From: Herbiconiux aconitum
GTDB lineage: Bacteria; Actinomycetota; Actinomycetes; Actinomycetales; Microbacteriaceae
Assembly: GCF_024979235.1 (NCBI RefSeq)
Contig: NZ_JANLCM010000002.1
Location: 124,001 to 188,000 of the forward strand
Length of the DNA stretch: 64,000 bases
Direction of reading: 5' to 3'
Positions 23,756 through 55,877 of this stretch are shown piece by piece. The translations under genes and the position numbers were made by a program. Within the stretch, counting starts at the first letter, position 1, and each line of letters starts with the position of its first letter. A model generated the notes under the pieces. It made no database searches. It was not told the DNA's origin and saw nothing but the letters and a program-made list of their open reading frames with translations.

Positions 23756-26407
23756 CTAGGCCATGGGCAGGAGGCGCAACGACTTGCCGGTCGCCGCGAA
23801 GCCGCGCGACGCGAACTCGCGGGCCACGGCGACGCGCTCCGCCGTCGGCCGGCCATACGTCGTCGTGCGCTGCACGGGCACGCGACCGATCTCGGTGATC
23901 ATGCCCTCCAACTCGTCGACCGTCTTCTCCGAGCCGTTGTCGGCCCCGGCCATCCGGCTGATCGTCTCCTCCATCAGGGTGCCGCCGAGGTCGTCGGCGC
24001 CGCCCTGCAGCATCTGCTGGGTTCCGCCGTTGCCGAGCTTCACCCAGGAGGTCTGCACGTGGTCGATGCGCCCGTGCAGCATGAGTCGCGACACCGCGTG
24101 GATGGCCCGGTTCTCCTGCACGGTCGGCCCCGGCCGGGCAACGCCCGCGAGGTAGACGGGGGAGTTCATGTGGATGAACGGCAGCAGCACGAACTCCGTG
24201 AACCCGCCGGTCTCGTCCTGGAGGCGCGACAGCGTGCGCAGGTGCCCCACCCAATGCGTCGGGTTGTCGACGTGCCCGTACATCATGGTCGACGACGACC
24301 GCAGCCCCACCTGGTGCGCCGCGGTGACGATCTCGATCCACTGCGCGGCCGGCAGCTTGCCCTTCGTGAGCACCCACCGCACGTCGTCGTCGAGGATCTC
24401 GGCGGCCGTGCCCGGAATGGTGTCGAGCCCGGCGGCCTTCGCCTCGAGCAGGAAGTCGCGGAACGACAGCCCTGTGCGGGCGGCCCCGTTCACGATCTCC
24501 ATCGGCGAGAACGCGTGCAGGTGGATGTCGGGCTGCCGCGCCTTCACCGTGCGCGCGAGGTCGAAGTAGGCCGTGCCCGGCAGGTCGGGATGGATGCCGC
24601 CCTGCATGCAGATCTCGGTGGCCCCGATCGACCAGGCCTCGTCGACGCGGTCGCCGACCTGTTCCATCGACAGCGTGTAGGCATCCGCATCGTTGCGTCG
24701 CTGAGCGAAGGCGCAGAAGCGGCATCCGGTGTAGCAGACGTTCGTGAAGTTGATGTTGCGGTTCACGACGTAGCCGACCTCGTCGCCGACGGTGGCGCGC
24801 CGCACCTCGTCGGCGAGGGCGGCGAGCGCCTCGAGGTCGGGGCCGTCGGCGCCGAGCAGCGTGAGGTAGTCGGCATCCGAGAGTCCGGCGGGGTCGACGG
24901 ATGCCCGCAGCAGCGCCGAGCGCACCGCCGGATCTCCGGATGCGCGCGTGCTGTTGCCGGGGTTCGCTCCCACGTGCTCGCGCAGCTCCGACCAGTCGCC
25001 GTAGACGTCGTCGAAGTCACTGCGGCGGTCGCCGGTGCGCCCGACGGTGTCGATCTCGGTGTGCAGCTCCGTGCGGCCCGATCCCGACGAGCCCCACTCC
25101 GGCTCCTGCCACGGCAGACCGACCGGGTTGCGGCCTTCGACGGCGAGTCCGTCTTCGGCCGCCAGTGCCCGCACGTGCGGAAGCACCCGGGGATCGATCC
25201 AGGGCTCTTCGGCGCGCACGAAGTGCGGATGGGCGGTGAGTCGCTCCCGCAGCGTGAAGCCCGCGTCGGCGGTGAGCCGCGCCAGGTCGTCGATGTGCGG
25301 CCACGGTCGCTCGGGGTTCACATGGTCGGGAGTGAGGGGTGAGACGCCGCCCCAGTCGTCGATGCCGGCGCGCACGAGCAGCGACAGCTCGCGCGCATCC
25401 GTGAGGTTCGGCGGAGCCTGGATGCGCGCCTTCGGCCCCAGCACCAGACGCGTCACCGCCACCGCGGCCACGTACTCCTGGGTCTCGAGGTCGTCGGCCG
25501 CCATCATGGCCGTGGCCGGCTTCGCGCGGAAGTTCTGGATGATGACTTCCTGCACGTGCCCGTGGCGGCGTGCGGCGGAACGGATGGCGAACATGCCGTC
25601 GACCCGCTCCTCGTAGTTCTCGCCGATGCCGAGCAGGAGGCCCGTGGTGAAGGGCACGTTCGAGCGCCCCGCGTCTTCGATCACGCGCAGGCGCAGCGCC
25701 GGGTCTTTGTCGGGCGAGCCGTAGTGGGCCTGGCCCTTCTCCGTCCAGAGGCGGGTCGAGGTGGTTTCGAGCATCATGCCCATCGAGGGAGCCACCGGCT
25801 TCAGCCGCTGGATCTCCTCCCACGTCATCACCCCGGGGTTCAGATGGGGGAGAAGCCCGGTCTCTTCGAGCACGCGGATGGCCATGGCCCGGAGATAGGC
25901 GATGGTGGAGTCGTAACCGTGCGCATCCAGCCACTCGCGGGCCGCGGGCCAGCGGTCTTCGGGCCGGTCGCCGAGGGTGAACAGTGCCTCCTTGCAACCG
26001 AGGGCGGCGCCCTGGCGAGCGACTTCGAGCACCTCGTCGGGCGACATGAAGGGAGCCTTGCCCTGCTTGGCGAGGCCGCCGGGGGTCTGCACGAAGGTGC
26101 AGTAGTGGCAGCGGTCGCGGCAGAGGTGGGTGAGCGGGATGAACACCTTGCGCGAATAGGTGATGACGCCCGGACGCCCGGCGATCTCGAGCCCGGCGTC
26201 ACGCACGCGGGAGGCGGCGGCCAGCAGACGATCGAGGTCGTCGCCACGGGCGTGCAGCAGCGTCTCGGCTTCGGTCGCGTTCAGCGAGACACCTTCGTCG
26301 GCACGCTTCAGCGCCCGCCGGATCGCGGACGCGTTCGGCACGAACGACTGGACGACGGGCGGCGGCGAAGCCTTGCGACGGGTGGGAACGGGCAGATCAG
26401 CAGGCAT
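23756..26407 (-). CDS. fbiC: FO synthase, CofG-CofH fusion
   Basis: Bifunctional radical-SAM enzyme that builds FO, the deazaflavin core of F420, from tyrosine and a ribityl-diaminouracil. It has 883 residues. The N-terminal CofG half carries the [4Fe-4S] cysteines C96/C100/C103 (CRDRCHYC), and the C-terminal CofH half carries C558/C562/C565 (CYTGCRFC). Segment [14 protein letters not shown] is CofH-typical. The ATG at 26407 gives [12 protein letters not shown] and is preferred over a longer open frame that lacks similarity. It is divergent from the guanine deaminase gene. Confidence 0.95.
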
Positions 26408-26465
26408 GGGCGACGACCTCGAAGTATCGGAAGAGATAACAAGAGAGCAGGGCCCAAAGCCAGAC

Positions 26466-26503
26466 CCAGAACCAGAATAGAACGAGCCTACCCCCTGTTC
26501 TGG
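26466..26503. promoter_or_regulatory. CCAGAAC inverted repeat between fbiC and guanine deaminase
   Basis: CCAGAAC (26466-26472) and GTTCTGG (26497-26503) form a perfect 7-bp inverted repeat. An extra CCAGAA overlaps the left arm and another CCAGAAC lies at 26541-26547, just before the guanine deaminase start. Candidate regulator sites. Confidence 0.4.
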
Positions 26504-26552
26504 AGCACGCCCGAACCGGGAGCGCTGTGCCACTATTGCCCCAGAACGACGA

Positions 26553-27959
26553 ATGGGGATCGACTTGGCTGAGACAGCAATCCGTGGCACCTTCTTGGAT
26601 TTCGTCGATGACCCGTGGAAACACGTCGGTCGCGAAGACGAGTCGGTGCGGTTCCACTCCGACGGGTTGCTCGTCATCGACGACGGCACGATCACCGACT
26701 TCGGGCCGTACGCCGAGGTCGCGCCGCGGCATCCGGGAGTCTCCGTCACCGAGATCACCGACCGCATCATCCTGCCCGGCTTCATCGACGGCCACATCCA
26801 CCTGCCGCAGACCCGGGTGCTCGGCGCCTACGGTGAGCAGCTGCTGCCCTGGTTGCAGAAGTGGGTGTTCCCCGAGGAACACAAATACGCCGACCGCGCC
26901 TACGCCGAAGAGGGCACGAAGCACTTCTTCGACAACCTGCTCGCCTCGGGCACCACGACCGCGCAGACCTTCACCACCGGCAACCTCACCTGCAACGAGG
27001 TGTTCTTCGAGGAGGCCGCGCGTCGCAACATGCGGATGATCGGCGGGCTCACCGGCATCGACCGGCACGTTCCCGACTACTTCGCCAACACGCCCGAGCA
27101 GTTCTACGACGACTCGAAGACGCTGATCGAGAAGCACCACGGGGTGGGCCGCAGCCTCTACGCCATCACGCCGCGCTTCGGCTTCGGCGCCTCGAACGAG
27201 CTGCTGGCCGCGTGCCGGCGGCTCAAGCAGGAGTATCCGGAGCTGTGGATCAACACCCACATCTCCGAGAACCCCGCCGAGATCCACGGCGTGCTGGCGC
27301 TGCACGACGACTGCCACGACTACCTCGGCGTCTACGAGAAGTACGACCTGGTGGGCCCGAAGTTCACGGGCGGTCATGGCGTGTGGCTCTCGAACGACGA
27401 GTTCCGCCGCATCTCGGAGTCGGGCGCCGCGGTCTCGTTCTGCCCCTCGTCGAACCTCTACCTCGGCAGCGGACTGTTCCGCCTGGGTCGCGCGACCGAT
27501 CCCGAGCACCGCGTGCTGCTGAACTTCGGCACCGACATGGGCGGCGGAAACCGCTTCAGTCTGCTCAACTCGCTCGAAGACGCCTACAAGGTCGGGATGC
27601 TCAACAACACCCTCCTCGACGGCTCGGTCATTCCGAGCGAACAGGATCTCGCGGAGTCGGAGCGCAACAAGCTGTCGCCGTTCCGCGCCTTCTATTCGCT
27701 CACGAAGGGCGCCGCCGAGTCGCTCTACATCGACCACCTGGTGGGCAGCTTCGACATCGGCAAGGAAGCCGACTTCGTGGTGCTGGACTGGAACGCGGGC
27801 CCGCCCGCGACCGCCTGGCACCAGAGCATGCTGCACGACGGCGGGGAGCTCACGCTCGAGGCGGCATCCGACCTGCTGTTCGGCATCATGATGGTCAGCG
27901 ACGAGCGGGCCGTCGACGAAACCTGGGTGATGGGCGAGCGCGCGTACAAGAAGGCCTGA
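26553..27959 (+). CDS. guaD: Guanine deaminase
   Basis: Amidohydrolase-fold enzyme converting guanine to xanthine plus ammonia. It has 468 residues. Zinc ligands and active-site motifs are visible: [15 protein letters not shown] (HxH with the PQ pair typical of guanine deaminase), [21 protein letters not shown], and NFGTDMGGG with the metal aspartate. The start is uncertain: ATG 26553 has no Shine-Dalgarno, whereas a TTG at 26565 has GGGGA five bases upstream and would give [10 protein letters not shown]. It feeds the purine genes at 49-57 kb, although the xanthine-oxidising step is not in the window. Confidence 0.9.
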
Positions 27960-29475: not shown

Positions 29476-30468
29476 TCAGCGGATGGCGGCGGCCAGGGCG
29501 TCGGCGGCGAGCTGCGCGCTGGTGTCCGGGTCGCTCATCCAGAGGGGCACCACCGAAGTGCGGATGCCGGCCGCTTCGAGAACGGGGGCGCTCGCCGCAT
29601 CCGTCTCGTCGATCAGCCAGGCGTCGAGCAAGCCGCCGCCCCGAGACCTCGATCCGTAGTGCTTCGCGACGGCGGCGGCCGTGGTCTCGACGCCGATGGC
29701 GGTGAGGCAGGCGTCGGCCATGCCGCGCACCGCAGCGCCGGAGATGATGGGGGAGACCCCGACGATCGGCGCTCGGGCGGCACGAAGGGCGTTCCGCACG
29801 CCGTTGACGCCGAGGATGGTGCCGATGGAGACCACAGGATTCGACGGTGCGATCAGGATGACGTCGGCGCCCTCGATGGCGTGCAGCACCTGGGGCGTGG
29901 GCTTCGCCGCATCCACCCCGACCTGGATGAAGCGTTGCGCCGGCACGTTCGCGCGGTACTTCACCCACCATTCCTCGAAGTGCACGACCTTGCGCTGGCC
30001 TTCGACGTCGATGACCACGTGGGTTTCGACCGGCTGGTCGCTCATCGGCAGGAGGCGCACGCCGGGGTTCCAGCGTTCGGCGAGGCGGGCGGTGGCTTCG
30101 GTGAGCGTGAGGCCGTCGCGCAAGAAGCTGGAGCGGGCGATGTGCGTGCCGAGATCGAGATCGCCCAGGGTGAACCAGGGCCAGCCTATGCCGTAGGCGG
30201 TGAGTTCTGCGCTGACGCGTTCGGTCTCGCCTTGGCGGCCCCAGCCGCGCTCGTCGTCGTTGGCGCCCCCGAGGGTGTACATGATCGAGTCGAGGTCGGG
30301 GCACACCCGCAGCCCGGTCAGCCACATGTCGTCGCCGGTGTTCACCACCGCTGTGACTTCGGCGGTCGAGCCGCCGTCGCCGTTCGGATACCGCGACCTC
30401 AGGTGTGTGCGCAGCCCCCGCAGGAACCGTGCCCCTCCGACGCCGCCCGCGAGAACCGTAACTTTCAC
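29476..30468 (-). CDS. cofD: 2-phospho-L-lactate/enolpyruvate transferase (F420-0 synthesis)
   Basis: FbiA/CofD: transfers the guanylylated phosphoenolpyruvate moiety made by CofC onto FO, giving dehydro-F420-0. It has about 330 residues. Diagnostic motifs are VTVLAGGVGGARFLRGL, NTGDDMWLTGLRVCPDLDSIMYTLGG, GDLDLGTHIAR and VSPIISGAAVRGMAD. The GTG at 30468 gives the usual V/MKVTVLAGG start; an ATG six codons earlier (30486) is possible and neither has a strong Shine-Dalgarno. It is not adjacent to cofE, in contrast to the fbiAB operon of mycobacteria. Confidence 0.94.
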   Translation of the reverse strand: MKVTVLAGGVGGARFLRGLRTHLRSRYPNGDGGSTAEVTAVVNTGDDMWLTGLRVCPDLDSIMYTLGGANDDERGWGRQGETERVSAELTAYGIGWPWFTLGDLDLGTHIARSSFLRDGLTLTEATARLAERWNPGVRLLPMSDQPVETHVVIDVEGQRKVVHFEEWWVKYRANVPAQRFIQVGVDAAKPTPQVLHAIEGADVILIAPSNPVVSIGTILGVNGVRNALRAARAPIVGVSPIISGAAVRGMADACLTAIGVETTAAAVAKHYGSRSRGGGLLDAWLIDETDAASAPVLEAAGIRTSVVPLWMSDPDTSAQLAADALAAAIR

Positions 30469-30638
30469 GACTCCATTCAACCCCATCCGTGCGGGCGCCT
30501 TCGCTGGTCGCGCTCAGTATCCGGTGGCGTCGATGGTCGCCAGCACACTGTGAACTCCCTCATCTCGGCGAGGCCGAGCTGCTCTGCCAGCGTCGCAGCA
30601 GGGGCGAGGTCGTCGCAGCTCGCTGCACCCGGGGCAGC

Positions 30639-30674: not shown

Positions 30675-32018
30675 TCACGTGGCGCGGGCAGCACCGGCCA
30701 GGAGCGCGCCGACCTGGTCGAACTCCTCCCGCACGCGTCCGGCCGTCACCCTCAGGAACTGGGGGTGACCGGGCGCCGGCGCCGTGGCCGCGAACGTCGA
30801 GCCGGCGGCCACCCGGATGCCGCTCGCGGCCAGCGTGACGATCGCCGCCTTCTCGTCGACCACCGGAATCCAGGTGTTGATGCCGTCGGAGGGCTGATGC
30901 GGGAGCCCGTTGCGCACGAGCGACTCCGAGAGCAGGCGCTGCCGGGCCTGGTACATCCGCCGGGCGTCGTGCACCGTCGTCACCGACGAACTGGCCGTCA
31001 GCAGCTCGTAGAGGATGGTCTGCAGCATCCGCGAAGTCCAGCCGGGGCCGAGCATCCGGCGCGCCACGATCCGGTCGATGAGCGCCTCCGGGCCGCCGAG
31101 AGCCGCGATGCGCAGGTCGGGGCCGTGCGATTTCGCATAGCTCCGGATGTGCAGGGTGCGGTGGGGAAGCCAGCGTCCGATGCTGAGCGGGGGAGCGCTG
31201 GAGATCTCGCCCGAGTGGTCGTCTTCGATCACTACGGGGTCGCCGAGGTGCTCGTGTGCGCGCAGCACCCGGGCGATTTCGCGCATCCGGCTCTCGGTCA
31301 TCGACAGGCCGGTGGGATTCTGGGCGCGGGGCTGCAGCAGGATGGCGACCGGATTCAGCTGCAGTGCCCGGGCGAGCTGCTCGGGCAGCATCCCTTCGGC
31401 GTCGAGATCGACGGCCAGCCGCTCCACCCCGATGTGATCGAGCAGATCGAGGAAGGGCGGGAAGGTCGGATTCTCCACCACGACGCGATCGCCGTACCGC
31501 ACCAGGGTCTCCAGCGACCGGGAGATGGCGTCGAGCGCGCCGTCGACGATGGTGAGGGACGCGACCGGGTACGGCCACGCCGCCCGCAGCAGCAGGTCGA
31601 GATCCGGCAGCACCGGCGCGCTCAGGTAGCTCGCCGTGTCGGCCCGGGTGGGGAGCTTCGTGAGGGCTCCGCTGAGGTCGGGGAGGAGCTCCGGATCGGG
31701 GGTGCCGGTCGACAGATCCAGGCGCGCCACCACGTGTGAGCCCGCCAGCTCGCCGAAGTGCGGCGGCATCCAGGGCGTCGAGGCCTGCAGCACGTAGCTT
31801 CCGGCGCGCCCGCGGGAGGTGATCAGCCCGACCCCCGACAGGGCCTGCCACGCGTTGCTGACCGTGGCCGGGCTGACTCCGAGCGTCGCCGCGACGTCGC
31901 GTACGGTGGGAAGACGGTCGCCGGCACTCAGAGCACCGGATCGGATGAGACGGGAGATGGCGGCGGCGATGCCCTCCGGCGTGCGGTATTCCACCGCATC
32001 GACGATCTGATCGAGCAT
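30675..32018 (-). CDS. MocR/PdxR-type GntR regulator with aminotransferase-like domain
   Basis: A 447-residue transcription factor. Residues about 10-75 are a GntR winged helix (ISRLIRSGALSAGDRLPTVRDVAATLGVSPATVSNAW). The rest is a class I aminotransferase fold with the PLP-binding lysine in RSYAKSHGPDLR and QPRAQNPTG as substrate loop. MocR proteins sense PLP or amino-compound aldimines. It is divergent from the operon ending in an aminotransferase, so it probably controls that operon in response to an amino product such as a beta-amino acid (inference). GTGCTC direct repeats in the shared promoter are its candidate sites. Confidence 0.9.
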   Translation of the reverse strand: MLDQIVDAVEYRTPEGIAAAISRLIRSGALSAGDRLPTVRDVAATLGVSPATVSNAWQALSGVGLITSRGRAGSYVLQASTPWMPPHFGELAGSHVVARLDLSTGTPDPELLPDLSGALTKLPTRADTASYLSAPVLPDLDLLLRAAWPYPVASLTIVDGALDAISRSLETLVRYGDRVVVENPTFPPFLDLLDHIGVERLAVDLDAEGMLPEQLARALQLNPVAILLQPRAQNPTGLSMTESRMREIARVLRAHEHLGDPVVIEDDHSGEISSAPPLSIGRWLPHRTLHIRSYAKSHGPDLRIAALGGPEALIDRIVARRMLGPGWTSRMLQTILYELLTASSSVTTVHDARRMYQARQRLLSESLVRNGLPHQPSDGINTWIPVVDEKAAIVTLAASGIRVAAGSTFAATAPAPGHPQFLRVTAGRVREEFDQVGALLAGAARAT

Positions 32019-32182: not shown

Positions 32183-33031
32183 ATGACGACCGTTCGTGCC
32201 GCGATCACCCAGACCACCTGGACCGGCGACAAGGAGTCGATGCTCCAGAAGCACGAGGGCTTCATGCGGGAGGCTGCGGCCGAGGGCGCGCAGGTGATCT
32301 GCTTCCAGGAACTGTTCTACGGGCCCTACTTCGGCATCACGCAGGACAAGAAGTACTACCGCTACGCCGAACCGGCCGACGGCCCGATCGTGCAGCGTTT
32401 CGCGGCGCTCGCCAAGGAGCTCAACATGGTCGCGATCCTCCCGATCTACGAGGAGGAGCAGACCGGCGTCTACTACAACACCGCCGTCATCGTGGATGCC
32501 GACGGAACGATTCTCGGCAAGTACCGCAAGCACCACATCCCGCATCTCGAGTCGTTCTACGAGAAGTTCTACTTCCGCCCTGGCAACCTCGGCTACCCCG
32601 TGTTCGACACCGCTGTCGGCAAGATCGGCGTGCACATCTGCTACGACCGGCACTTCCCCGAGGGCTGGCGCGAACTGGGCTTGAACGGCGCCCAGATGGT
32701 GTTCAACCCGAACGCGTCGAAGCCTGGCCTCTCGAACCGCCTCTGGGAGCTCGAAGGCCCTGCCGCGGCGGGCGCGAACCAGTACTTCGTGCTCGTGCCC
32801 AACCGCGTCGGCAAAGAAGACAACGAGTACGGCGACCTCGCCGTGAACTTCTACGGCACCTCCTACGTCGTCGACCCCCGCGGCAACTACGTGGGCGAGA
32901 CCGGCTCCAGCGAGCACGAGGAGATCCTCATCCGCGATCTCGACCTCGACGCCATCCGCGACACCCGCGACGACTGGCAGTTCTACCGCGACCGCCGCCC
33001 CGACGCCTACGCCGAGATCGTGGCACCGTAA
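32183..33031 (+). CDS. Nitrilase-superfamily amidohydrolase, probable beta-ureidopropionase (N-carbamoyl-beta-alanine amidohydrolase)
   Basis: Releases ammonia and CO2 from N-carbamoyl amino acids. It has 282 residues from the ATG at 32183. The nitrilase triad is complete: E43 (FQELF), K116 (YRKHHIPH) and C153 (HICYDRHFPEGW). KHHIPHLESFYEKFYFRPGN is characteristic of the beta-ureidopropionase branch. The 32183 start has GAAAGGA upstream and a family-like MTTVRAAITQ; an ATG at 32144 would add 13 residues and also has a GGGGA. It is the first gene of the operon, with a strong -35 upstream, and dihydropyrimidinase follows 14 bases later. Confidence 0.88.
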   Translation: MTTVRAAITQTTWTGDKESMLQKHEGFMREAAAEGAQVICFQELFYGPYFGITQDKKYYRYAEPADGPIVQRFAALAKELNMVAILPIYEEEQTGVYYNTAVIVDADGTILGKYRKHHIPHLESFYEKFYFRPGNLGYPVFDTAVGKIGVHICYDRHFPEGWRELGLNGAQMVFNPNASKPGLSNRLWELEGPAAAGANQYFVLVPNRVGKEDNEYGDLAVNFYGTSYVVDPRGNYVGETGSSEHEEILIRDLDLDAIRDTRDDWQFYRDRRPDAYAEIVAP

Positions 33032-33045
33032 GCGGGAGGGCCGTC

Positions 33046-34479
33046 ATGAAGACTCTCATCACCGGTGGAACCGTCGTCAACGCGACGGGCACGGCCCAGG
33101 CCGACGTGCTGATCGACGGCGACACCATCGCGGCGGTTCTGGCTCCTGGCAGCAGCCTGCTCGGCTTCGACCTCGCGGGCAATGTCGACGAGGTGGTGGA
33201 TGCGTCGGGCAAGTACGTCATTCCCGGCGGCATCGACGCGCACACCCACATGCAGATGCCGTTCGGCGGCACCGAGGCGAGCGACACCTTCGAGACCGGC
33301 ACCCGCGCGGCCGCGCACGGCGGCACCACGTCGATCATCGATTTCGTGGTGCAGTACGCGGGTGAGAACATCCTCGACCAGTACCACCTCTGGCACGAGA
33401 AGGCGGCGGGCAACTGCGCCATCGACTACGGCTTCCACCAGATCCTCTCCGACGTGCAGGATTCCTCGTTGACGGCGATGGATGAGCTGATCAACGAGGG
33501 GGTCACCTCCTTCAAGCTCTTCATGGCCTACAAGGGCGTCTTCCTCTCCGACGACGGCCAGATCGTGAAGGCGATGCAGCGGGCATCCGACAACGGATCG
33601 CTCATCATGATGCACGCCGAGAACGGCTCGGTCATCGACCTGCTGGTGAAGCAGCACCTCGAGCGCGGCGAGACCAAGCCGTACTACCACGGTGTCTCGC
33701 GCCCGTGGCAGGCCGAGGAGGAGGCCACGCACCGCGCCATCATGCTCGCCAACCTCACCGGCGCGCCGCTCTACATCGTGCACGTCAGCGCGAAGCAGGC
33801 GGTGGAGCAGATCGCGGCCGCCCGCGACAACGGGCAGAACGTGTTCGCTGAGACCTGTCCGCAGTATCTGTACCTCTCGCTCGAAGACCAGCTCGGCGCC
33901 TCCAGCCCCGAGTGGGGCGACTTCGAGGGCGCGAAGTGGGTGTGCTCGACGCCGCTGCGCTCGAAGCACGAGGGCCACCAGAACCACATGTGGAGGGGCC
34001 TCCGCACGAATGACCTGCAGGTGATCTCCACCGACCACTGCCCGTTCTGCATGAAGGGCCAGAAAGACATGGGCATCGGCGACTTCTCGAAGATCCCGAA
34101 CGGCATCGGCTCGGTCGAGCACCGGATGGACCTGATCTATCAGGGCGTGGTGATGGGCGAGATCTCGCTGCCGCGCTGGGTGGAGCTCACCAGCACCACG
34201 CCGGCACGGATGTTCGGGGTCTACGGCAAGAAGGGCGTGATCCAGCCCGGTGCCGACGGAGACGTGGTCATCTACGACCCCCAGGGTCACACCTCCATCG
34301 GTCTCGAGAAGACGCACCATATGAACATGGACTACTCGGCCTGGGAGGGCTTCGAGATCGACGGCCACGTCGACACGGTGTTCTCCCGAGGGCGCAAGAT
34401 CGTCGACGACAACTCCTACCTGGGTCGAAAAGGCGACGGCGCCTATTTCAAGCGCGGCCTCAGCCAGTACCTGATCTGA
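33046..34479 (+). CDS. hydA: Dihydropyrimidinase / hydantoinase
   Basis: Opens the ring of dihydrouracil, dihydrothymine or 5-substituted hydantoins to give N-carbamoyl amino acids. It has 477 residues. Binuclear zinc site: H66/H68 (DAHTHMQMP), carboxylated lysine K157 (TSFKLFMAYKG), MMHAENG, YIVHVSA and the aspartate in STDHCPFC. The FAETCPQYLYL segment is typical of the D-hydantoinase/dihydropyrimidinase group. GGGAGGG precedes the ATG. The neighbouring ureidopropionase would cleave its product. Pyrimidine or hydantoin specificity cannot be decided from sequence. Confidence 0.92.
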   Translation: MKTLITGGTVVNATGTAQADVLIDGDTIAAVLAPGSSLLGFDLAGNVDEVVDASGKYVIPGGIDAHTHMQMPFGGTEASDTFETGTRAAAHGGTTSIIDFVVQYAGENILDQYHLWHEKAAGNCAIDYGFHQILSDVQDSSLTAMDELINEGVTSFKLFMAYKGVFLSDDGQIVKAMQRASDNGSLIMMHAENGSVIDLLVKQHLERGETKPYYHGVSRPWQAEEEATHRAIMLANLTGAPLYIVHVSAKQAVEQIAAARDNGQNVFAETCPQYLYLSLEDQLGASSPEWGDFEGAKWVCSTPLRSKHEGHQNHMWRGLRTNDLQVISTDHCPFCMKGQKDMGIGDFSKIPNGIGSVEHRMDLIYQGVVMGEISLPRWVELTSTTPARMFGVYGKKGVIQPGADGDVVIYDPQGHTSIGLEKTHHMNMDYSAWEGFEIDGHVDTVFSRGRKIVDDNSYLGRKGDGAYFKRGLSQYLI

Positions 34480-34505
34480 TCGCCTGCAGAAAAGAGACAC
34501 AGCAC

Positions 34506-35522
34506 ATGGAATTCGGCGCAGTCGTTCAGACGAACCCACCGGCAGCCCGCACAGTCGGGCTCGCGAAGCTGAGTGAGCAGTACGGCTTCGACTACTTCTG
34601 GACCTTCGATTCGCACCTGCTCTGGCAGGAGCCCTACGTCATCTACAGCCAGATCCTGGCCGAGACCCACAAGATCAAAGTCGGCCCGATGGTCACCAAC
34701 CCGGCCACGCGCGACTGGACGGTCACGGCATCGGTCTACGCCACGCTCAACGAGATGTACGGCAACCGCACCATCTGCGGCATCGGCCGCGGCGACTCGG
34801 CGGTGCGCGTCACCAACGGGGCGCCCACCACGCTGAAGACCCTCCGGGAGTCGATCCACGTCATCCGCGAGCTCGGCAACTCGCGCTCGGTGGAGTACAA
34901 CGGGGCGACGTTGCAGTTCCCCTGGAGCCACGGATCGCAGCTCGACGTGTGGGTGGCCGCTTACGGCCCGCTCGCCCTGAAGGTGGCGGGCGAGGTGGGC
35001 GACGGCTTCATTCTGCAGTGCGGCGACATCGACATCGCCAAGTGGATGATCGCCTCGGTGCGTGCCGCCGCCGAGAACGTCGGGCGCAACCCCGATGACA
35101 TCGCGTTCTGCGTCGCCGCTCCGATGTACATCGGAACCGACTGGGAGCACATGCGTGACCAGTGCCGCTGGTTCGGCGGCATGGTGGGCAACCACGTGGC
35201 CGACATCGTGGCGAAATACGGCGAGAACAGCGAGGTGCCGCAAGCCCTCACCGACTACATCAAAGACCGCGAAGGCTACGACTACAACGAACACGGCCGC
35301 GCGGGCAACACGCACACGAGCTTCGTGCCGGATGAGATCGTCGACCGGTTCTGCGTGCTCGGCACCGCGGAGCAGCACATCGAGAAGCTCAAGCAGCTGA
35401 AAGACATCGGGGTCACCCAGTTCGCCGGCTACCTGCAGCACGACTTCAAGGAGGAGACCCTCCGGGTGTACGGCGAGACCGTCATGCCGGCCCTCCGCGA
35501 CCACATCACGGCCAAGGCATGA
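34506..35522 (+). CDS. LLM class oxidoreductase, probably F420-dependent (TIGR03842/CPS_4043-like)
   Basis: Luciferase-like TIM-barrel protein of 338 residues. Motifs FDYFWTFDSHLLWQEPYVIYSQ, GPMVTNPATRDWTVTASVYATLNEMY and GIGRGDSAVRVTNGAP suit an F420- or FMN-binding LLM enzyme. From memory it resembles the TIGR03842 subgroup predicted to use F420 and found with dihydropyrimidinase genes. It sits between the ring-opening enzymes and the importer, and its stop overlaps the next gene (ATGA). The window has no dihydropyrimidine dehydrogenase, so this may supply the pathway's redox step. RutA, a pyrimidine monooxygenase, belongs to the same superfamily, so oxygenation is an alternative. Confidence 0.82.
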   Translation: MEFGAVVQTNPPAARTVGLAKLSEQYGFDYFWTFDSHLLWQEPYVIYSQILAETHKIKVGPMVTNPATRDWTVTASVYATLNEMYGNRTICGIGRGDSAVRVTNGAPTTLKTLRESIHVIRELGNSRSVEYNGATLQFPWSHGSQLDVWVAAYGPLALKVAGEVGDGFILQCGDIDIAKWMIASVRAAAENVGRNPDDIAFCVAAPMYIGTDWEHMRDQCRWFGGMVGNHVADIVAKYGENSEVPQALTDYIKDREGYDYNEHGRAGNTHTSFVPDEIVDRFCVLGTAEQHIEKLKQLKDIGVTQFAGYLQHDFKEETLRVYGETVMPALRDHITAKA

Positions 35523-36430
35523 GCGAACGCTCCCGATCGGGGCCTGGCGGCCCCCGCACCAATCAGACGGCGAAGCGGATCGCCTTCGGCGTCGGGGGAG
35601 TGGTGCTGCTCGTCGTGATCTGGGAGCTCTACAAGGCGCTCGGGCCGGCCGCCGGAGTCGTGGTCGGCGACCTCACGATCCTGCCCCGCACCACCGACCT
35701 CGCCATGCCGCACGTCTGGGACATGATCGGCCGCCTGTTCGAACCGACCGGGGGCGGGCGCAATGCGGAACCGGTATGGCTCGCCGTGCTGCAGGCATCC
35801 GTCTTCAGTCTCGGCGTGGCCGCTGTGGGCTGGGTGGTGGGCGTGGTCGTGGGGCTGCTGCTGGCCATCCTGATGCAGCGCTTCCGCACCGCGGAGTCGG
35901 CCGTGCTGCCCTGGATCATCCTCAGCCAGACCGTTCCGCTCATCGCCATCGCCCCGCTGGTGCGGCGCTGGGGTTCGCAGCTCGAGTTCGGCGACTTCAG
36001 CTGGGAGAACTGGATGTCGGTGGCCGTCATCGCCTCCTACCTCGCCTTCTTCCCGGTGTCGATCGGTGCGCTCCGCGGGCTCAACTCGCCCGACACCATC
36101 CATGTCGAGCTGTTCCGCAGCTACGGGGTGGGCTGGTGGAAGACGCTCTTCGTTCTGCGGCTGCCGGCCAGCGTGCCCTACCTGCTGCCCGCGCTGCGGC
36201 TCGCCGCCGCCAACGCCGTGATCGGCACCGTGGTGGCCGAGGTCTCGATCGGCCTGCGCGGCGGCATCGGCCGCATGATCATCGAATACGCCCAGCAGGC
36301 CTCGGGCGACCCGGCCAAGACCTGGGCGCCGATCTTCGGGGCGGTGGCGGTGGGGCTCGTTGCGGCCGGATTCATCGCCCTGCTCGGAGTGCTGCTCCGC
36401 CGTTACCGTAGAGGGGAAGTGCCCGCATGA
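35519..36430 (+). CDS. ABC transporter permease (SsuC/TauC-like), first subunit
   Basis: A 303-residue BPD-type permease with about six membrane helices and the cytoplasmic coupling loop ELFRSYGVGWWKTLFVLRLPASVPYLLPALRLA. It belongs to the family that imports nitrate, sulfonates and thiamine-pyrimidine-like compounds. The N-terminus is a charged segment before the first helix (about 19-38). It overlaps both the LLM gene and the ATPase gene by four bases, so it is cotranslated with them. The substrate is presumably a dihydropyrimidine, hydantoin or ureido compound, by context. Confidence 0.88.
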   Translation: MSERSRSGPGGPRTNQTAKRIAFGVGGVVLLVVIWELYKALGPAAGVVVGDLTILPRTTDLAMPHVWDMIGRLFEPTGGGRNAEPVWLAVLQASVFSLGVAAVGWVVGVVVGLLLAILMQRFRTAESAVLPWIILSQTVPLIAIAPLVRRWGSQLEFGDFSWENWMSVAVIASYLAFFPVSIGALRGLNSPDTIHVELFRSYGVGWWKTLFVLRLPASVPYLLPALRLAAANAVIGTVVAEVSIGLRGGIGRMIIEYAQQASGDPAKTWAPIFGAVAVGLVAAGFIALLGVLLRRYRRGEVPA

Positions 36431-37272
36431 GCGACGCCAGCGTCACCACCGAGGAGCGCGGTGCAGCCGTGCCCGCCGTTCAGGTCGCGGGGGTCGACAA
36501 GATCTTCGTGGGCAAGAAGAAGTCGACCGTCACAGCCCTCGAGTCGATCGACCTGACGGTGGCTCCGGGCGAGTTCGTGTCGCTGATCGGGCCCTCCGGA
36601 TGCGGCAAGTCGACTCTGCTGCGCCTGATCGCCGATCTCGACACTCCCACTGTCGGAACCGTCACCGTCTTCGGCAAGAGCGCGCGGCAAGCCCGGATCG
36701 ACCAGGAATACGGCATCGCCTTCCAGCAGGCCGGCCTCCTGCCGTGGCGCACGGTCACAGGCAACATCGAGCTGCCCCTGGAACTGCACGGCGTGGCCGG
36801 CGCCGCCCGGCGTTCCCGGGTGGCCGAGCTGCTCACGCTGGTGGGGCTCTCCGACTTCGCCGAGAGCTACCCCGACCAGCTCTCGGGCGGCATGCAGCAG
36901 CGGGTCGCGATCGCCCGCGCACTCGCCGAGAGTCCCCGGCTCCTCCTCATGGACGAGCCCTTCGGAGCCCTCGACGAGATGACACGCGAACGGATGCAGA
37001 CCGAACTCGTGCGCATCACCGGCGAGACCGGGGCGGCCGTCGTGTTCGTCACGCACTCCATCCCCGAGGCGGTCTACCTCTCGAACCGGGTGGTCGTGAT
37101 GTCGCCTCGACCCGGGCGCATCCGCGACGTGCTCACCGTCTCGCTCGGCACGGCCTTGGAGCGCACCGAGGAACTGCGCGAGAACGAGGCCTTCTTCGAA
37201 AACGTCAGCAAGGTGCGCGAGCTGCTGCACGGCGAGGCGCCCGTCGGAATCCGGGGGGTCGAGACCCGATGA
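36427..37272 (+). CDS. ABC transporter ATP-binding protein
   Basis: A 281-residue ATPase for the importer. Walker A GPSGCGKST, Q-loop FQQAGLLPWRTV, signature LSGGMQQRVAIARAL, Walker B LLLMDEPFGALDE and the H-loop VFVTHSIPEAVYLSNRVVVMS are all intact. It is of the SsuB/TauB/NrtD type. Four-base overlaps on both sides tie it to the two permeases. A basic VGKKKSTVTALESIDL segment starts the nucleotide-binding domain. Confidence 0.93.
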   Translation: MSDASVTTEERGAAVPAVQVAGVDKIFVGKKKSTVTALESIDLTVAPGEFVSLIGPSGCGKSTLLRLIADLDTPTVGTVTVFGKSARQARIDQEYGIAFQQAGLLPWRTVTGNIELPLELHGVAGAARRSRVAELLTLVGLSDFAESYPDQLSGGMQQRVAIARALAESPRLLLMDEPFGALDEMTRERMQTELVRITGETGAAVVFVTHSIPEAVYLSNRVVVMSPRPGRIRDVLTVSLGTALERTEELRENEAFFENVSKVRELLHGEAPVGIRGVETR

Positions 37273-38042
37273 GGAACTCCGTGAGCATCTACCGCACCGT
37301 GCTCGCCCCGGTGCTGCTGGGGCTTGCGCTCCTCGCACTCTGGCAGCTGCTCGTGGTGGCCTTCGACATCAAGGCCTTCATCGTGCCGGGCCCGGTGGCC
37401 ATCGGGTCGGAGTTCGGCGCCAACCTCTCCACCGTGCTCCAGGGCGCCCTCGTGACGGGCGGCAACGCCCTCGTCGGGCTCGTGATCGGCGGCGTGGCGG
37501 GCATCCTGTTCGCCATCGTCGCCGCCCTCGTGCGGGTGATCGACGAGTTGAGCGCCGCGGTGGTCGCCGCCATCGCCGTGGTGCCGATCGTGGCCCTGGC
37601 TCCGGTGCTCTACACGATGTTCGGTGCCGCCGCCGAGACCGGCCGGCAGCTGGTGGCGGCGATCGCGGTGTTCATCCCGGTGTACATCAACACGCTGCGG
37701 GGTCTGCGGCAGGTGCGCCCCGTGCACCGCGACCTGATGCGGGTCTACGCGGCATCCGCATGGCAGACGACGCGCACGGTGACGGTTCCCGGCGCACTGC
37801 CGTTCATCTTCACCGGGCTGCGCATCGCGTCGAGCCTCGCCGTGATCTCCGCCCTCATCGCCGAGTACTTCGGCGGCCCCATCGGCGGACTCGGCAAATC
37901 GATCACCTCCGCTGCAAGCGGCTCCAACTACAGCCTCGCCTGGGCCTACGTGCTCGGCGCCATCATCGTCGGGCTCGTGTTCTACTGCGTCACCCTCGCC
38001 ATCGAGAAGATCGCGACGCGGCACTACAGCCCGAACACCTAG
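37269..38042 (+). CDS. ABC transporter permease, second subunit
   Basis: A 257-residue BPD-type permease with six predicted helices and the coupling loop LMRVYAASAWQTTRTVTVPGALPFIFTGLRIA. With the permease at 35519 it would form a heterodimeric channel. The ATG at 37269 overlaps the ATPase stop. The gene for the substrate-binding lipoprotein follows after 39 bases. Homodimeric permeases are more usual for this family; a heterodimer is typical of the THI5-like/NMT1 importer clusters. Confidence 0.88.
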   Translation: MRNSVSIYRTVLAPVLLGLALLALWQLLVVAFDIKAFIVPGPVAIGSEFGANLSTVLQGALVTGGNALVGLVIGGVAGILFAIVAALVRVIDELSAAVVAAIAVVPIVALAPVLYTMFGAAAETGRQLVAAIAVFIPVYINTLRGLRQVRPVHRDLMRVYAASAWQTTRTVTVPGALPFIFTGLRIASSLAVISALIAEYFGGPIGGLGKSITSAASGSNYSLAWAYVLGAIIVGLVFYCVTLAIEKIATRHYSPNT

Positions 38043-38081
38043 ATCTGCACCATCCGGCATCACCCAGAAGGAGGAGCAATC

Positions 38082-39230
38082 ATGAAACACAGCACCCGTC
38101 TCATCAGCGGCGTCGGCGCCCTCGCCGTCACCGCGCTCGCGCTCGCGGGCTGTTCGAGCGGCGGAACCAGCGACTCGGTCGACTCGACCGAGTCCGGTGA
38201 CCTGACCCCGGTCAGCCTGCAGCTGCAGTGGTATTCGCAGGCCCAGTTCGCGGGCTACTACGCTGCCCTCGACCAGGGCTTCTACGAAGACGAAGGCCTC
38301 GACGTCTCGATCCTCGAGGGCGCGGCCGACATCGTTCCTATCGACGTGCTCACGGGCGGCGACGCCGACTTCGCGATCTCCTGGGTGCCGAAGGTGCTGG
38401 GCTCGATCGAGCAGGGCGCCGCCGTCACCGACATCGCGCAGATCTTCGAGCGAAGCGGCACCACGCAGATCTCGATGAAGGATGCGAACATCACCACCCC
38501 GGCCGACCTCAAGGGCAAGACCGTCGGCAGTTGGGGCTACGGCAACGAGTGGGAGCTCTTCGCCGGCATGCAGAAGGCCGACGTGAACGTGGGTGACATC
38601 TCGCTCGTGCAGCAGGCCTTCGACATGAACGGCTTCCTCGCCGGCGACATCCAGGCCGCCCAGGCCATGACCTACAACGAATACGCGCAGGTGCTGGAGA
38701 CGGTCAACCCGGCCACCGGCGAGCTCTTCACCCCCGAGGAGCTGAACGTCATCAACTGGAACGACGAAGGCACCGCGATGCTCCAGGATGCGATCTGGGC
38801 CGACTCGGATCGCCTCGCTGACGACGCCGACTACGCCGACACCGCCGTGAAGTTCATCAAGGCCTCCATCAAGGGCTGGGCCTACGCGCGCGACAATCCC
38901 GAAGAGGCCGCGACGATCGTGACCGCCTCAGGCTCGCAGCTCGGCGAGAGCCACCAGCTCTGGATGACCAACGAGGTCAACAAACTGATCTGGCCCTCCG
39001 AGAACGGCGTCGGCATGATCAACCAGGACGAGTGGGACCAGACGGTCTCCATCGCCAAGGGCACCGAGAACGAGACGGGCGCGACCATCATCACCTCCGA
39101 CCCGCCCGAGACGGCGTTCTCGAACGAGTACGTGGAGAAGGCGCTCTCGGAGTTGAAGGATGAAGGTGTGGATGTGAACGGAGCGGACTTCGCGCCGATC
39201 ACGGTGACGCTCAAGGAGGGTGGCCAGTAG
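38082..39230 (+). CDS. ABC transporter substrate-binding lipoprotein (NMT1/THI5-like)
   Basis: A 382-residue periplasmic-type binding protein. The signal peptide ends in the lipobox LALAGC (cysteine about residue 24), followed by a Ser/Asp-rich linker, so it is lipid-anchored at the outer face of the membrane. The mature domain begins VSLQLQWYSQAQFAGYYAAL, typical of the NMT1/THI5-like family that binds pyrimidine-like and other small organics. GAAGGAGGAG precedes the ATG. An 89-base near-palindrome directly downstream probably ends or attenuates transcription before the aminotransferase gene. Confidence 0.9.
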   Translation: MKHSTRLISGVGALAVTALALAGCSSGGTSDSVDSTESGDLTPVSLQLQWYSQAQFAGYYAALDQGFYEDEGLDVSILEGAADIVPIDVLTGGDADFAISWVPKVLGSIEQGAAVTDIAQIFERSGTTQISMKDANITTPADLKGKTVGSWGYGNEWELFAGMQKADVNVGDISLVQQAFDMNGFLAGDIQAAQAMTYNEYAQVLETVNPATGELFTPEELNVINWNDEGTAMLQDAIWADSDRLADDADYADTAVKFIKASIKGWAYARDNPEEAATIVTASGSQLGESHQLWMTNEVNKLIWPSENGVGMINQDEWDQTVSIAKGTENETGATIITSDPPETAFSNEYVEKALSELKDEGVDVNGADFAPITVTLKEGGQ

Positions 39231-39241
39231 GGTCGCCTCCC

Positions 39242-39330
39242 GTCGATCCGGGGGGTGGTCTTCACCCTCCGCCTAGGGGTTGAGCGGAGCTCAAAGGCGG
39301 CGGAGGGCGAAGACCACCCCCCGGATCGAC
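39242..39330. terminator. 89-base near-perfect palindrome between the binding-protein and aminotransferase genes
   Basis: Arms of 32 bases (39242-39273 and 39299-39330) pair with a single A/G difference, tolerated as a wobble. The 25-base loop itself holds TTGAGC-GGA-GCTCAA, a second stem. It is far longer than a normal intrinsic terminator. It could be a terminator, an RNA-processing/stabilising hairpin or a small palindromic repeat element. Confidence 0.6.
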
Positions 39331-39370
39331 TACCAGATACACAGAACGAGATACAGAAACAGGCATTGCA

Positions 39371-40708
39371 ATGACTCTTGATCCTGACGACGGCGTGCTC
39401 GCTCTTGAGCTTGATCGGGCCTACGTGTTCCACTCCTGGTCGGCTCAGGCGACCCTGAAGCCGATGGTCATCGCCGGCGGGGCCGGGTCGACGGTGTGGG
39501 ACTTCGAAGGGAACGAGTTCCTCGACTTTTCTTCGCAGCTCGTTAACACGAACATCGGACATCAGCATCCGGCTGTGGTCAGCGCCATCAAGGAGCAGGC
39601 CGACATCCTCACCACCGTGGCTCCGGCGCATGCCAACCTGACTCGGGGGAAGGCTGCTCAGCGGATTCTGGCCCGGGCGGGGAACTCGTTCAGCAAAGTG
39701 TTCTTCACCAACGGTGGGGCGGATGCGAACGAGAACGCCATCCGGATGGCTCGGCTGTACACGGGGCGCGACAAGGTGCTGTCGCACTACCGGTCGTACC
39801 ACGGGAACACGGGCGCGGCGGTGGTCGCCACGGGCGACTGGCGGCGGGTGCCGAACGAGTTCGCTCGGGGGCACGTGCACTTCTTCGGGCCGTTCGCGTA
39901 TCGGTCGGAGTTCTGGGCGACGTCGCCCGAACAGGAGTCGGAGCGGGCGCTGCAGCACCTCGAGCGGGTCATCCAGTCGGAGGGGTCGACGTCGATCGCC
40001 GCGATTCTGATCGAGACCATTCCCGGCACGGCCGGTGTGCTGGTGCCGCCTCCCGGGTATCTCGCCGGGGTGCGGGCTCTGGCCGACAAGTACGGCATCG
40101 TGCTGATCTTCGACGAGGTGATGGCGGGCTTCGGGCGCACCGGGTCGTGGTTCGCGTTCCAGGCGCTGGCCGAGCAGGAGGGCGGGCTCGTGGAGCCCGA
40201 TCTCATCAGCTTCGCCAAGGGCGTGAACTCGGGGTACGTGCCGGCCGGCGGCGTGATCATCTCACCGTCCATCGCCGACATCTTCGACGACAACGTCTTT
40301 CCCGGCGGCCTGACCTACTCCGGGCATCCGCTCGCCATGGCCTCGATCGTGGGCACGCTCGACGCGATGGAAGACGAAGGCATCGTGACCAACGCCGCGC
40401 ACATCGGGCGCGACCTGCTCGCTCCCGGGCTCGCGGCACTGGCCGAGAAGTATCCGATCATCGGCGAAGTGCGGGGCTTGGGAGTGTTCTGGGCCCTCGA
40501 CCTGGTGAGCGCCCCCTCGACCCGCGCGCCGCTGTCGCCCGGGGGAGTGGGCGCGCTGAAGGCCGCCTTGCTCGCGCGCGGGCTGCTGCCTTTCACGGCC
40601 GACAACCGGCTGCACGTGGTGCCGCCGTGCGTCGTCACCGATGCCGAGGTCGAGCGGGCGCTGACGATCTACGACGAGGCCTTCGCGGCCATCGGCGAGG
40701 TCGACTGA
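39371..40708 (+). CDS. Class III aminotransferase (omega-amino acid:pyruvate type)
   Basis: PLP enzyme of 445 residues. The cofactor lysine lies in SFAKGVNSGYVPAGGV and the aspartate in LIFDEVMAGFGRTG. FFTNGGADANENAIRMAR and SHYRSYHGNTGAAV are class III motifs. The position at the end of the operon suggests it transaminates beta-alanine or 3-aminoisobutyrate released by the ureidopropionase, giving malonate semialdehydes (inference). Codon usage in this gene is less strict, with GGG and CGG unusually frequent compared with the operon upstream. ATG at 39371 has no strong Shine-Dalgarno. Confidence 0.88.
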   Translation: MTLDPDDGVLALELDRAYVFHSWSAQATLKPMVIAGGAGSTVWDFEGNEFLDFSSQLVNTNIGHQHPAVVSAIKEQADILTTVAPAHANLTRGKAAQRILARAGNSFSKVFFTNGGADANENAIRMARLYTGRDKVLSHYRSYHGNTGAAVVATGDWRRVPNEFARGHVHFFGPFAYRSEFWATSPEQESERALQHLERVIQSEGSTSIAAILIETIPGTAGVLVPPPGYLAGVRALADKYGIVLIFDEVMAGFGRTGSWFAFQALAEQEGGLVEPDLISFAKGVNSGYVPAGGVIISPSIADIFDDNVFPGGLTYSGHPLAMASIVGTLDAMEDEGIVTNAAHIGRDLLAPGLAALAEKYPIIGEVRGLGVFWALDLVSAPSTRAPLSPGGVGALKAALLARGLLPFTADNRLHVVPPCVVTDAEVERALTIYDEAFAAIGEVD

Positions 40709-40768: not shown

Positions 40769-40787
40769 CATGTAGAGTCCCTACATG
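40769..40787. promoter_or_regulatory. Palindrome overlapping the -10 and start codon of the LysR gene
   Basis: CATGTAG-AGTCC-CTACATG is a perfect 7-bp inverted repeat whose right arm includes the ATG (40785). TAGAGT at 40773-40778, inside it, lies six bases before the ATG and is the likely -10. Binding of the encoded LysR protein here would block its own leaderless transcript. Confidence 0.55.
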
Positions 40788-41726
40788 GATGTGCGTCGCC
40801 TCGAACTGCTGCGGGAGCTCGCCGAGCGAGGCAGCATCACCGAGGTCGCCCGCGCGACGCATCGCACGCCCTCCGCGGTGTCACAGCAGCTCCGCATCCT
40901 CGAACGGGAGGCGGGCCTGCCGCTCACCGAGAAGGCCGGCCGCGGCATCGTGCTGACGGATGCCGGCCGCGCGCTGGCCCGTAGCGCCACCGACGTCGCC
41001 GTGGCGATCGAACAGGCGACGGCGCTTTGGGACGAGTTCCGCAACGACCCCACGGGCGAGGTGTCGCTCGCTACCTTCCCGACCGGCGGCCAGATGCTGC
41101 TCCCCGGCGTCGTGAACCGACTCGACGCCGTCGGCGGACTCACCCTGCACTGCTCCGACCGCGACCCCGAGAGCGACGATTTCCCGGCCCTCACGGCCGA
41201 CTTCGACATCGTGCTCGCGCACACCGCATCATCGGCGGCGACGAACTGGCCCACCACCGACGTCGCGGCGGTGAAGCTGATGACCGAGCCGCTCGACATC
41301 GCGCTGCCGCCCGGGCATCCGCTCGCGTCGAAAGAACTCCTCGACCCCGAAGACCTGATCGGGGAGCGCTGGATCGGCGTGCCCTGGGGCTATCCCTTCG
41401 AGCGCACCATCCACGACATCTCGGCCGCGGCCGGCTCGCCGATGAACGTGGTGCAGCGCTTCGGCGACACGCGCGTGACCGAGGCCTTCGTGGCCGCAGG
41501 GCTCGGCATCGCCATCCTGCCCTGCTACACGGCCGGCGGCGCCTATCGCAGCGAGATCGTGCTGAAGAACCTGCGCGGTGTCGTGGCCGAACGCCACATC
41601 TTCGCGCTGATGCGCCCCGACCGTGCCGAGCGGCTCGCCGTGCGCACGGTCGTCGATGCGCTCCGTGCCGAAGCGGATGCGGTGGTGGCCGCGAACATCC
41701 ACCGCAACCCGCCCCGCGCCGCCTGA
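40785..41726 (+). CDS. LysR family transcriptional regulator
   Basis: A 313-residue regulator. The N-terminal helix-turn-helix (MDVRRLELLRELAERGSITEVARATHRTPSAVSQQLRILE) is followed by the effector domain with PTGGQMLLPGVVNRL and a late GDTRVTEAFVAAGLGIAILPCYTAGG. Target genes are unknown. It is downstream of the aminotransferase in the same direction but separated by its own promoter. The start codon lies inside a palindrome, suggesting autoregulation. Confidence 0.9.
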   Translation: MDVRRLELLRELAERGSITEVARATHRTPSAVSQQLRILEREAGLPLTEKAGRGIVLTDAGRALARSATDVAVAIEQATALWDEFRNDPTGEVSLATFPTGGQMLLPGVVNRLDAVGGLTLHCSDRDPESDDFPALTADFDIVLAHTASSAATNWPTTDVAAVKLMTEPLDIALPPGHPLASKELLDPEDLIGERWIGVPWGYPFERTIHDISAAAGSPMNVVQRFGDTRVTEAFVAAGLGIAILPCYTAGGAYRSEIVLKNLRGVVAERHIFALMRPDRAERLAVRTVVDALRAEADAVVAANIHRNPPRAA

Positions 41727-48931: not shown

Positions 48932-48966
48932 CGCCCCCGCCACACCCTCCCGCCGCACGCTCACGT

Positions 48967-49047
48967 TCGAAACGACGGAGTTGTGCACGATATTCGGGCT
49001 GAGGCTCCGTCGATTCGTCGTCGGGGCCGAATTCTCCGTCGTTTCGA
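48967..49047. repeat. 14-bp perfect inverted repeat upstream of pucG
   Basis: TCGAAACGACGGAG (48967-48980) and CTCCGTCGTTTCGA (49034-49047) enclose 53 bases containing GGCTCCGTCGATTCGTC. It lies downstream of the amidase gene and could terminate it. The arms share CGTTTCG with the repeat at 29395-29470. Confidence 0.5.
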
Positions 49048-49072
49048 CACGGGGTTACCACGAAACACGACT

Positions 49073-49086
49073 GAAACGTTCGTTTC
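49073..49086. promoter_or_regulatory. GAAAC-N4-GTTTC palindrome at the pucG promoter
   Basis: GAAACGTTCGTTTC lies just upstream of a -10-like TAGACT (49088-49093). A further CGAAAC at 49061-49066 forms a cluster. Candidate site for the RpiR-type regulator encoded at the end of this operon. Confidence 0.45.
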
Positions 49087-49098
49087 GTAGACTGGCGG

Positions 49099-51641: not shown

Positions 51642-51645
51642 CCCC

Positions 51646-52488: not shown

Positions 52489-52491
52489 CGG

Positions 52492-53142: not shown

Positions 53143-53205
53143 GCGACAATTCAACGCCTGTCGGCACGGACGTTTCGCGATTCCCGGAGAAATCGCGGGC
53201 GAGTG

Positions 53206-53811: not shown

Positions 53812-53817
53812 GCCCTC

Positions 53818-53827
53818 ATCGTAAGCT
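53818..53827. promoter_or_regulatory. Overlapping divergent -10 boxes (MobA-like / uraD)
   Basis: ATCGTAAGCT reads TAAGCT on the plus strand and TACGAT on the minus strand, sharing the central TA. Each lies exactly six bases before its start codon (53834 and 53811). Layout identical in principle to 6292-6301. Confidence 0.6.
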
Positions 53828-53833
53828 GGAGGC

Positions 53834-55851: not shown

Positions 55852-55877
55852 AATTAACGATCAATTTACGTGGCGGC

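Follow-up and report, generated by a model that had tools for sequence, protein, structure and literature searches.

Which enzyme reduces the ring when an operon encodes ring opening, decarbamoylation and transamination of a pyrimidine and lacks dihydropyrimidine dehydrogenase? This question is raised by an operon at positions 32183-40708 of a 64,000-nucleotide stretch of Herbiconiux aconitum DNA (contig NZ_JANLCM010000002.1, positions 124,001 to 188,000; here called the window). An earlier note on this DNA had described these three functions together with a full ATP-binding cassette (ABC) importer, and had placed an oxidoreductase of the luciferase-like monooxygenase (LLM) type between the ring-opening genes and the importer, translationally coupled to the permease. 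Matching genes are present (Table 1), the LLM gene lies where described, and a 4-base overlap between its stop and the start of the first permease gene makes translational coupling plausible. We propose, with a probability of about 0.78, that the LLM enzyme is an F420H2-dependent uracil/thymine reductase standing in for dihydropyrimidine dehydrogenase.

The operon and the missing dehydrogenase

With the reductive pyrimidine (Pyd) pathway the operon shares the ring-opening enzyme, putative enzymes for decarbamoylation and transamination, and an importer of the type found there. It differs in that the window is devoid of PydA/PreAT, in whose place an unrelated TIM-barrel protein of the LLM type and F420 genes are found. 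On sequence grounds the system would work like the Pyd pathway, with the first enzyme replaced. The lack of a dihydropyrimidine dehydrogenase, noted earlier for the window, extends to the whole genome (99.97% complete), where the top match to PreA (NF006183) reaches 26.7 bits compared to a cut-off of 335; a hidden dihydropyrimidine dehydrogenase in this genome was rejected on this basis. CofC, CofD, CofE and FbiC, all said to lie within the same 64 kb, each score above their curated cut-offs.

For the cofactor, the substrate and the direction of the reaction we infer the following sequence of events. The ABC importer would take in the pyrimidine, and the LLM enzyme would saturate the C5-C6 double bond of uracil (or thymine), with a hydride from F420H2 going to C6 and a proton to C5. 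Uracil would thereby yield dihydrouracil, whose ring the dihydropyrimidinase would open to N-carbamoyl-beta-alanine. The CN-hydrolase would split the latter into beta-alanine, CO2 and NH3. From beta-alanine, malonic semialdehyde would finally be formed by the aminotransferase.

The dihydropyrimidinase contains AHTH, FKLFMAYK, MMHAEN, IVHVS and DHCPF, which we take to be its metal-site motifs, and the CN-hydrolase contains QELF, KYRKHH and CYDRHFPE, presumably the Glu/Lys/Cys motifs. The best family of the CN-hydrolase is TIGR03381 (254.2 bits, under the cut-off of 410.25); the aminotransferase belongs to the PRK06062 subfamily ('hypothetical protein'; 713.9 bits, cut-off 472). The LLM product is 99% identical to its counterpart in Herbiconiux ginsengi.

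Gene company across genomes and plasmids

TIGR03842 (the family of the window LLM protein), CofD, PreA and dihydropyrimidinase were searched for in a single, evenly drawn sample of 296 genomes of Actinomycetota. Dihydropyrimidinase was counted at E ≤ 1e-90 (90 genomes, 87 above the cut-off) and CofD at E ≤ 1e-10 (164 genomes, 156 above the cut-off). TIGR03842 occurs in 62 genomes from 16 families and 38 genera. Of these 62 genomes, 59 also encode dihydropyrimidinase, as do 31 of the 234 without TIGR03842 (Fisher p = 3e-35), and 58 have CofD, compared to 106 of the 234 (Fisher p = 4e-13); both p values assume independent genomes, an assumption that does not hold. Sorted by LLM and CofD, the 90 dihydropyrimidinase genomes comprise 55 with both, 4 with the LLM alone, 18 with CofD alone and 13 with neither. 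PreA exceeds its cut-off in none of the 62 TIGR03842 genomes and in two of the 296 (G208 and G191), both devoid of TIGR03842, while one TIGR03842 genome (G237) shows a sub-cut-off PreA match of 148 bits. The co-occurrence that the earlier note had proposed to look for is hence present. Of what it had held to speak against its idea, neither a dehydrogenase (PreA) elsewhere in the genome, named there jointly with a lack of F420 or FMN binding, nor homologues common in organisms without F420 synthesis were found, the latter as judged by CofD in the Actinomycetota sample.

To this we can add 143 LLM loci compared with reference proteins: 80 named relatives (the best 80 of 442), 60 regions from as many of the 62 positive genomes, many on short contigs, and three plasmid loci. 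Left out of the 60 were the window's own genome and G098, in which the match is cut by the contig end; the query for the nucleobase symporter NCS1 was a partial piece, cut by the locus end. Dihydropyrimidinase is encoded at the locus in 79/80 named relatives and 44/60 genome regions, a ureidopropionase of the nitrilase or M20 type in 78/80 and 54/60, an importer (NMT1-type substrate-binding protein or NCS1) in 61/80 and 44/60, and an aminotransferase match in 69/80 and 38/60. In 79 of the 80 named relatives the open reading frames (ORFs) of dihydropyrimidinase and LLM lie at most 1 kb apart on the same strand, the 80th contig being 5.3 kb long. A CofD homologue is found inside the locus in 40 of the 80, and in 59 the LLM gene has a homologue of the MocR regulator in divergent orientation. 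Neither preA nor preT was found at any of the 143 loci. Since hydrolase and importer type vary by lineage while LLM and dihydropyrimidinase are kept, the pattern argues against a frozen block resulting from descent alone.

As controls, we examined the dihydropyrimidinase regions of 20 genomes, out of the 31 that encode this enzyme but not TIGR03842. Hereof, 18 show no ureidopropionase match at E ≤ 1e-12. Of the two that do (L197, and L211 described below), the CofD-positive control from G208 (L197) contains the series preT-preA-M20 hydrolase-dihydropyrimidinase. In the control from G123 (L208) only 464 bases separate the end of an operon-type dihydropyrimidinase gene (562 bits) from the end of the contig, which makes the missing LLM uninformative. 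As a separate observation, the region from G086 (L204, 8603-12642) encodes a dihydropyrimidinase and, next to it in the same orientation, an LLM of another kind (PF00296 238 bits; only 77 bits to the TIGR03842 references).

Plasmids of Leisingera aquaemixtae and L. caerulea carry cofG-cofH-cofD-cofC-cofE-npdG-TIGR03842 on one strand with the LLM gene last. Divergent from this cassette are genes for subunits of an NAD(P) transhydrogenase and for an AptA omega-aminotransferase (742 bits, cut-off 500), the counterpart of the window aminotransferase. They are accompanied by genes for an M20-type Zn-hydrolase, a dihydropyrimidinase scoring 614.3 bits and a nucleobase symporter of the NCS1 type. Cofactor synthesis, cofactor reduction, LLM enzyme and the remaining pyrimidine pathway thus sit together, and electrons may be supplied here by the NADPH:F420 reductase with the neighbouring transhydrogenase. 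In Paracoccus alcaliphilus these seven genes recur in series, with an ABC importer behind them. Among plasmid records, 48 carry PreA and 12 a near-full-length LLM relative (at least 43% identity), with an accession overlap of zero. All 11 alphaproteobacterial plasmid records bearing the LLM carry cofD. The other 28 of 39 cofD plasmid records (e.g. Sinorhizobium) show no near-full-length LLM match at 43% identity or more, which suggests that F420 has other uses there. The classic form of the pathway is seen in Thalassospira marina, where preT-preA-M20 hydrolase precede genes for an aminotransferase, a methylmalonate-semialdehyde dehydrogenase, a CN-hydrolase and an ABC importer, and hydA. Its binding protein (38%), ATPase (53%; 52.8%) and CN-hydrolase (46.4%) are identical to those of the window to the extent given, and the importer identities indicate that an importer of this kind also works with a PreAT pathway. 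Among further controls, neither LLM nor preA is present near the dihydropyrimidinase genes read on plasmids of Azospirillum and Agrobacterium. PntB matches on plasmids were too general to be used.

Two further plasmid loci were observed. The plasmid NZ_LR594673 of Variovorax sp. PBL-E5 carries at 6414-16973 a diverged second cassette (L217), whose LLM reaches 202.7 bits against TIGR03842, under the cut-off. It encodes a CN-hydrolase, the LLM, a GTP-binding protein, npdG, RidA, cofG-H-D-C-E and ABC permeases; an amidohydrolase resembling dihydropyrimidinase/allantoinase is encoded close by. The cassette perhaps represents an F420 pathway for another N-heterocycle. On a plasmid of the haloarchaeon Natrinema sp. 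SYSU A 869 (L218, 4254-9002), an LLM gene follows a hydantoinase A-type gene and overlaps a hydantoinase B/oxoprolinase gene.

The LLM protein and competing explanations

The window LLM protein is a clear member of TIGR03842 ('F420_CPS_4043'), an NCBIfam hypothetical equivalog whose name carries a predicted cofactor but neither substrate nor pathway. The next-scoring models are those of F420-dependent Mer, and the closest solved chain by sequence is likewise Mer (8qpm, E = 2.4e-35). In the AlphaFold model the protein adopts a luciferase-like barrel which is structurally nearest to the F420 enzymes Mer, Adf and Fgd; VIA-align served as a second comparison, confined to the Foldseek matches. In a sequence alignment, V63-T64-N65-P66, present in 48/48 family members, corresponds to Mer V62-P65, the cis-peptide loop under the deazaflavin. 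The residue preceding V63 is M, C, F or L in members and Gly61 in Mer. The catalytic Glu6 of Mer is not kept, as V, T or C occupies this position in 48/48 members; the setting also differs, being pyrimidine catabolism instead of the methanogenesis of Mer. With the Leisingera LLM as protein query, at least 7241 of 8000 scored candidates were found at E ≤ 1e-60; the 120 matches listed include many Alphaproteobacteria and one Marinobacterium, and the viral contigs scanned with it contained no relative.

Of the cofactors considered earlier, 'F420 (or FMN)', F420 is favoured and flavin mononucleotide (FMN) disfavoured. According to a review, the redox potential of F420 is -340 mV compared to -190 mV for FMN (PMC8498797), which would render F420 a suitable hydride donor.

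Several observations weigh against an F420H2-dependent pyrimidine reductase. Four of the 62 LLM genomes, all fragmented assemblies, are without CofD (CofH is above its cut-off in G173 and present as a fragment in G119, neither being seen in G160 and G259), and three are without dihydropyrimidinase. Sixteen of the 60 genome regions show no dihydropyrimidinase nearby, one locus (L131) has neither dihydropyrimidinase nor hydrolase over its 20 kb, and in the 44 regions that encode LLM and dihydropyrimidinase together the two ORFs are at most 1 kb apart in just 19; the tight coupling of Microbacteriaceae is thus not general. The comparison with Pseudomonadota covers plasmids only: preA was not found in the Leisingera plasmid regions, the chromosomes not having been searched, and in Paracoccus alcaliphilus there is no dihydropyrimidinase within 14 kb. 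In the Foldseek order, luciferase 8cbb is interspersed with the F420 enzymes. Finally, a CofD-positive control (L211 from G218) pairs a CN-hydrolase with a divergent dihydropyrimidinase in the absence of TIGR03842 and PreA, so that a rule of 'LLM or PreA, one of the two' is not absolute. Its dihydropyrimidinase is barely above the cut-off (396.2 vs 393.25 bits), and its neighbours (5137-16554, minus strand) are XdhC, CoxE-like and molybdopterin-dehydrogenase FAD-binding proteins and an MmgE/PrpD protein. Because of these molybdenum-hydroxylase-type neighbours, L211 possibly belongs to another, oxidative heterocycle pathway.

It is unlikely, though worth considering before the others, that the LLM uses F420 for a different reduction within this pathway, at another step or on another ring, such as that of malonic semialdehyde, a modified pyrimidine or a purine-derived heterocycle. 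Ring reduction would then be without an enzyme, given that none of the 62 LLM genomes has PreA above the cut-off, and LLM loci keep dihydropyrimidinase more widely than the aminotransferase. For a purine-derived heterocycle, the window already contains a separate set of uricase, allantoinase and allantoate amidohydrolase.

We regard it as very improbable that the operon degrades hydantoins with the LLM as a peripheral or passenger gene. TIGR02033 does bear the name D-hydantoinase, and dihydropyrimidinases hydrolyse hydantoins. Hydantoinases, however, act on hydantoins without a reduction step. Moreover, the LLM is kept across 38 genera and stands in the Leisingera cassettes beside NCS1 and an AptA-type aminotransferase. 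Hydantoinase-like control loci on Sulfitobacter and Paracoccus denitrificans plasmids carry racemases and no LLM, with an N-carbamoyl-D-amino-acid hydrolase in one of them, whereas the window operon has no racemase. The hydantoin pathway was thus rejected, and with it one half of the earlier interpretation; the pyrimidine half appears strongly supported by comparative genomics and by the predicted fold.

Just as improbable is a role of the LLM as a monooxygenase that uses FMN in an oxidative pyrimidine pathway like that of RutA, a reading rejected on family scores and structural neighbours: TIGR03842 and then the Mer models score best, F420 enzymes are structurally nearer, CofD co-occurs strongly, and the neighbours are dihydropyrimidinase and ureidopropionase instead of ureidoacrylate-pathway enzymes. 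RutA itself, an FMN-dependent uracil monooxygenase, is of a different subfamily, with oxidative chemistry and other downstream enzymes; among the families listed the LLM protein is above the cut-off for TIGR03842 only and does not qualify as a RutA-type monooxygenase, the rest of the genome not having been searched for RutA.

Precedent, wider reach and further genes of the window

If the LLM enzyme is the proposed uracil/thymine reductase, the pathway would be a known one with a new first enzyme, whose activity is predicted from sequence and model. In the open-access literature searched, with subscription papers mostly outside the search, we found no proposal of F420-dependent uracil reduction and no mention of the accession TIGR03842; 'F420' and 'dihydropyrimidinase' appear together solely in a gut transcriptome study. 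In the F420 review, uracil and dihydropyrimidinase go unmentioned (PMC8498797). The nearest idea is a putative F420-dependent luciferase-family yanthine reductase in uric-acid clusters of Chloroflexota, suggested from gene neighbourhoods (PMC12507026). There, too, an F420 LLM enzyme would take the place of a heterocycle-reducing flavoprotein; it differs in its purine pathway and partner enzymes, and is likened here by idea.

Uracil is known to be reduced with NADPH, NADH or ferredoxin as donor (PMC7332683). We consider it reasonably probable that TIGR03842 represents an F420H2-dependent dihydropyrimidine dehydrogenase of unrelated fold that is widespread but has gone unrecognised, with F420H2 as a fourth electron-donor type, and that F420 synthesis travels in marine Alphaproteobacteria as a plasmid-borne catabolic accessory for uracil/thymine reduction. 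F420 in Alphaproteobacteria is described as trace and minor or niche-specific in the review (PMC8498797), and a plasmid-borne pyrimidine role would account for this obscure 'niche' role. Furthermore, a large, unassigned LLM family would gain a function, and a textbook nucleobase pathway would acquire F420H2 as an additional electron donor. Turnover of fluoropyrimidines and thymine would be predicted in soil Actinomycetota without dihydropyrimidine dehydrogenase, and a small soluble enzyme would become available for enantioselective C=C reduction of pyrimidinones.

Table 1. Features of the window, with positions counted from its first letter and family match scores in bits
Feature	Position	Strand	Family match and remarks
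CN-hydrolase (nitrilase superfamily), proposed beta-ureidopropionase, PydC role	32183..33031	+	PF00795 220.4
Dihydropyrimidinase, PydB role	33046..34479	+	TIGR02033 542.9, cut-off 393.25
LLM oxidoreductase, proposed F420H2-dependent uracil/thymine reductase	34506..35522	+	TIGR03842 577.9, cut-off 295.45
ABC importer permease	35519..36430	+	PF00528 78.0
ABC importer ATPase	36427..37272	+	PF00005 118.9
Second ABC importer permease	37269..38042	+	PF00528 76.3
ABC importer substrate-binding protein, NMT1/THI5-like	38082..39230	+	PF09084 127.0
Class-III aminotransferase, proposed beta-alanine (and beta-aminoisobutyrate) transaminase, presumed substrate	39371..40708	+	PF00202 278.1
MocR-type regulator (GntR + aminotransferase domain), divergent, possible local regulator	30675..32018	-	PF00392, PF00155
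LysR-type regulator after the operon, possible local regulator	40785..41726	+	PF03466, PF00126
CofE, F420 synthesis	about 13249..14343 (start assumed)	+	TIGR01916 220.1, cut-off 180.65
CofC, F420 synthesis	about 17414..18034 (limits of match; contig 141414-142034)	+	TIGR03552 128.6, cut-off 105
FbiC (CofGH fusion), F420 synthesis	23756..26797	-	PRK09234 1472.1, cut-off 1018
CofD, F420 synthesis	29476..30486	-	TIGR01819 355.5, cut-off 257.45
ORF with allantoate amidohydrolase as C-terminal part	48915-51641		purine-ring cluster
F420-NADP oxidoreductase-domain protein	52492-53154	-	PF03807; purine-ring cluster
Uricase	54845-55750	-	purine-ring cluster
Allantoinase	55878-57275	-	566.2, cut-off 357.85; purine-ring cluster

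Two further features of the window are recorded here. A purine-ring cluster extends over 48915-57275, and a second F420-type LLM is encoded directly before CofE at 12251-13246 (TIGR03557 272.8 bits, cut-off 210.4).

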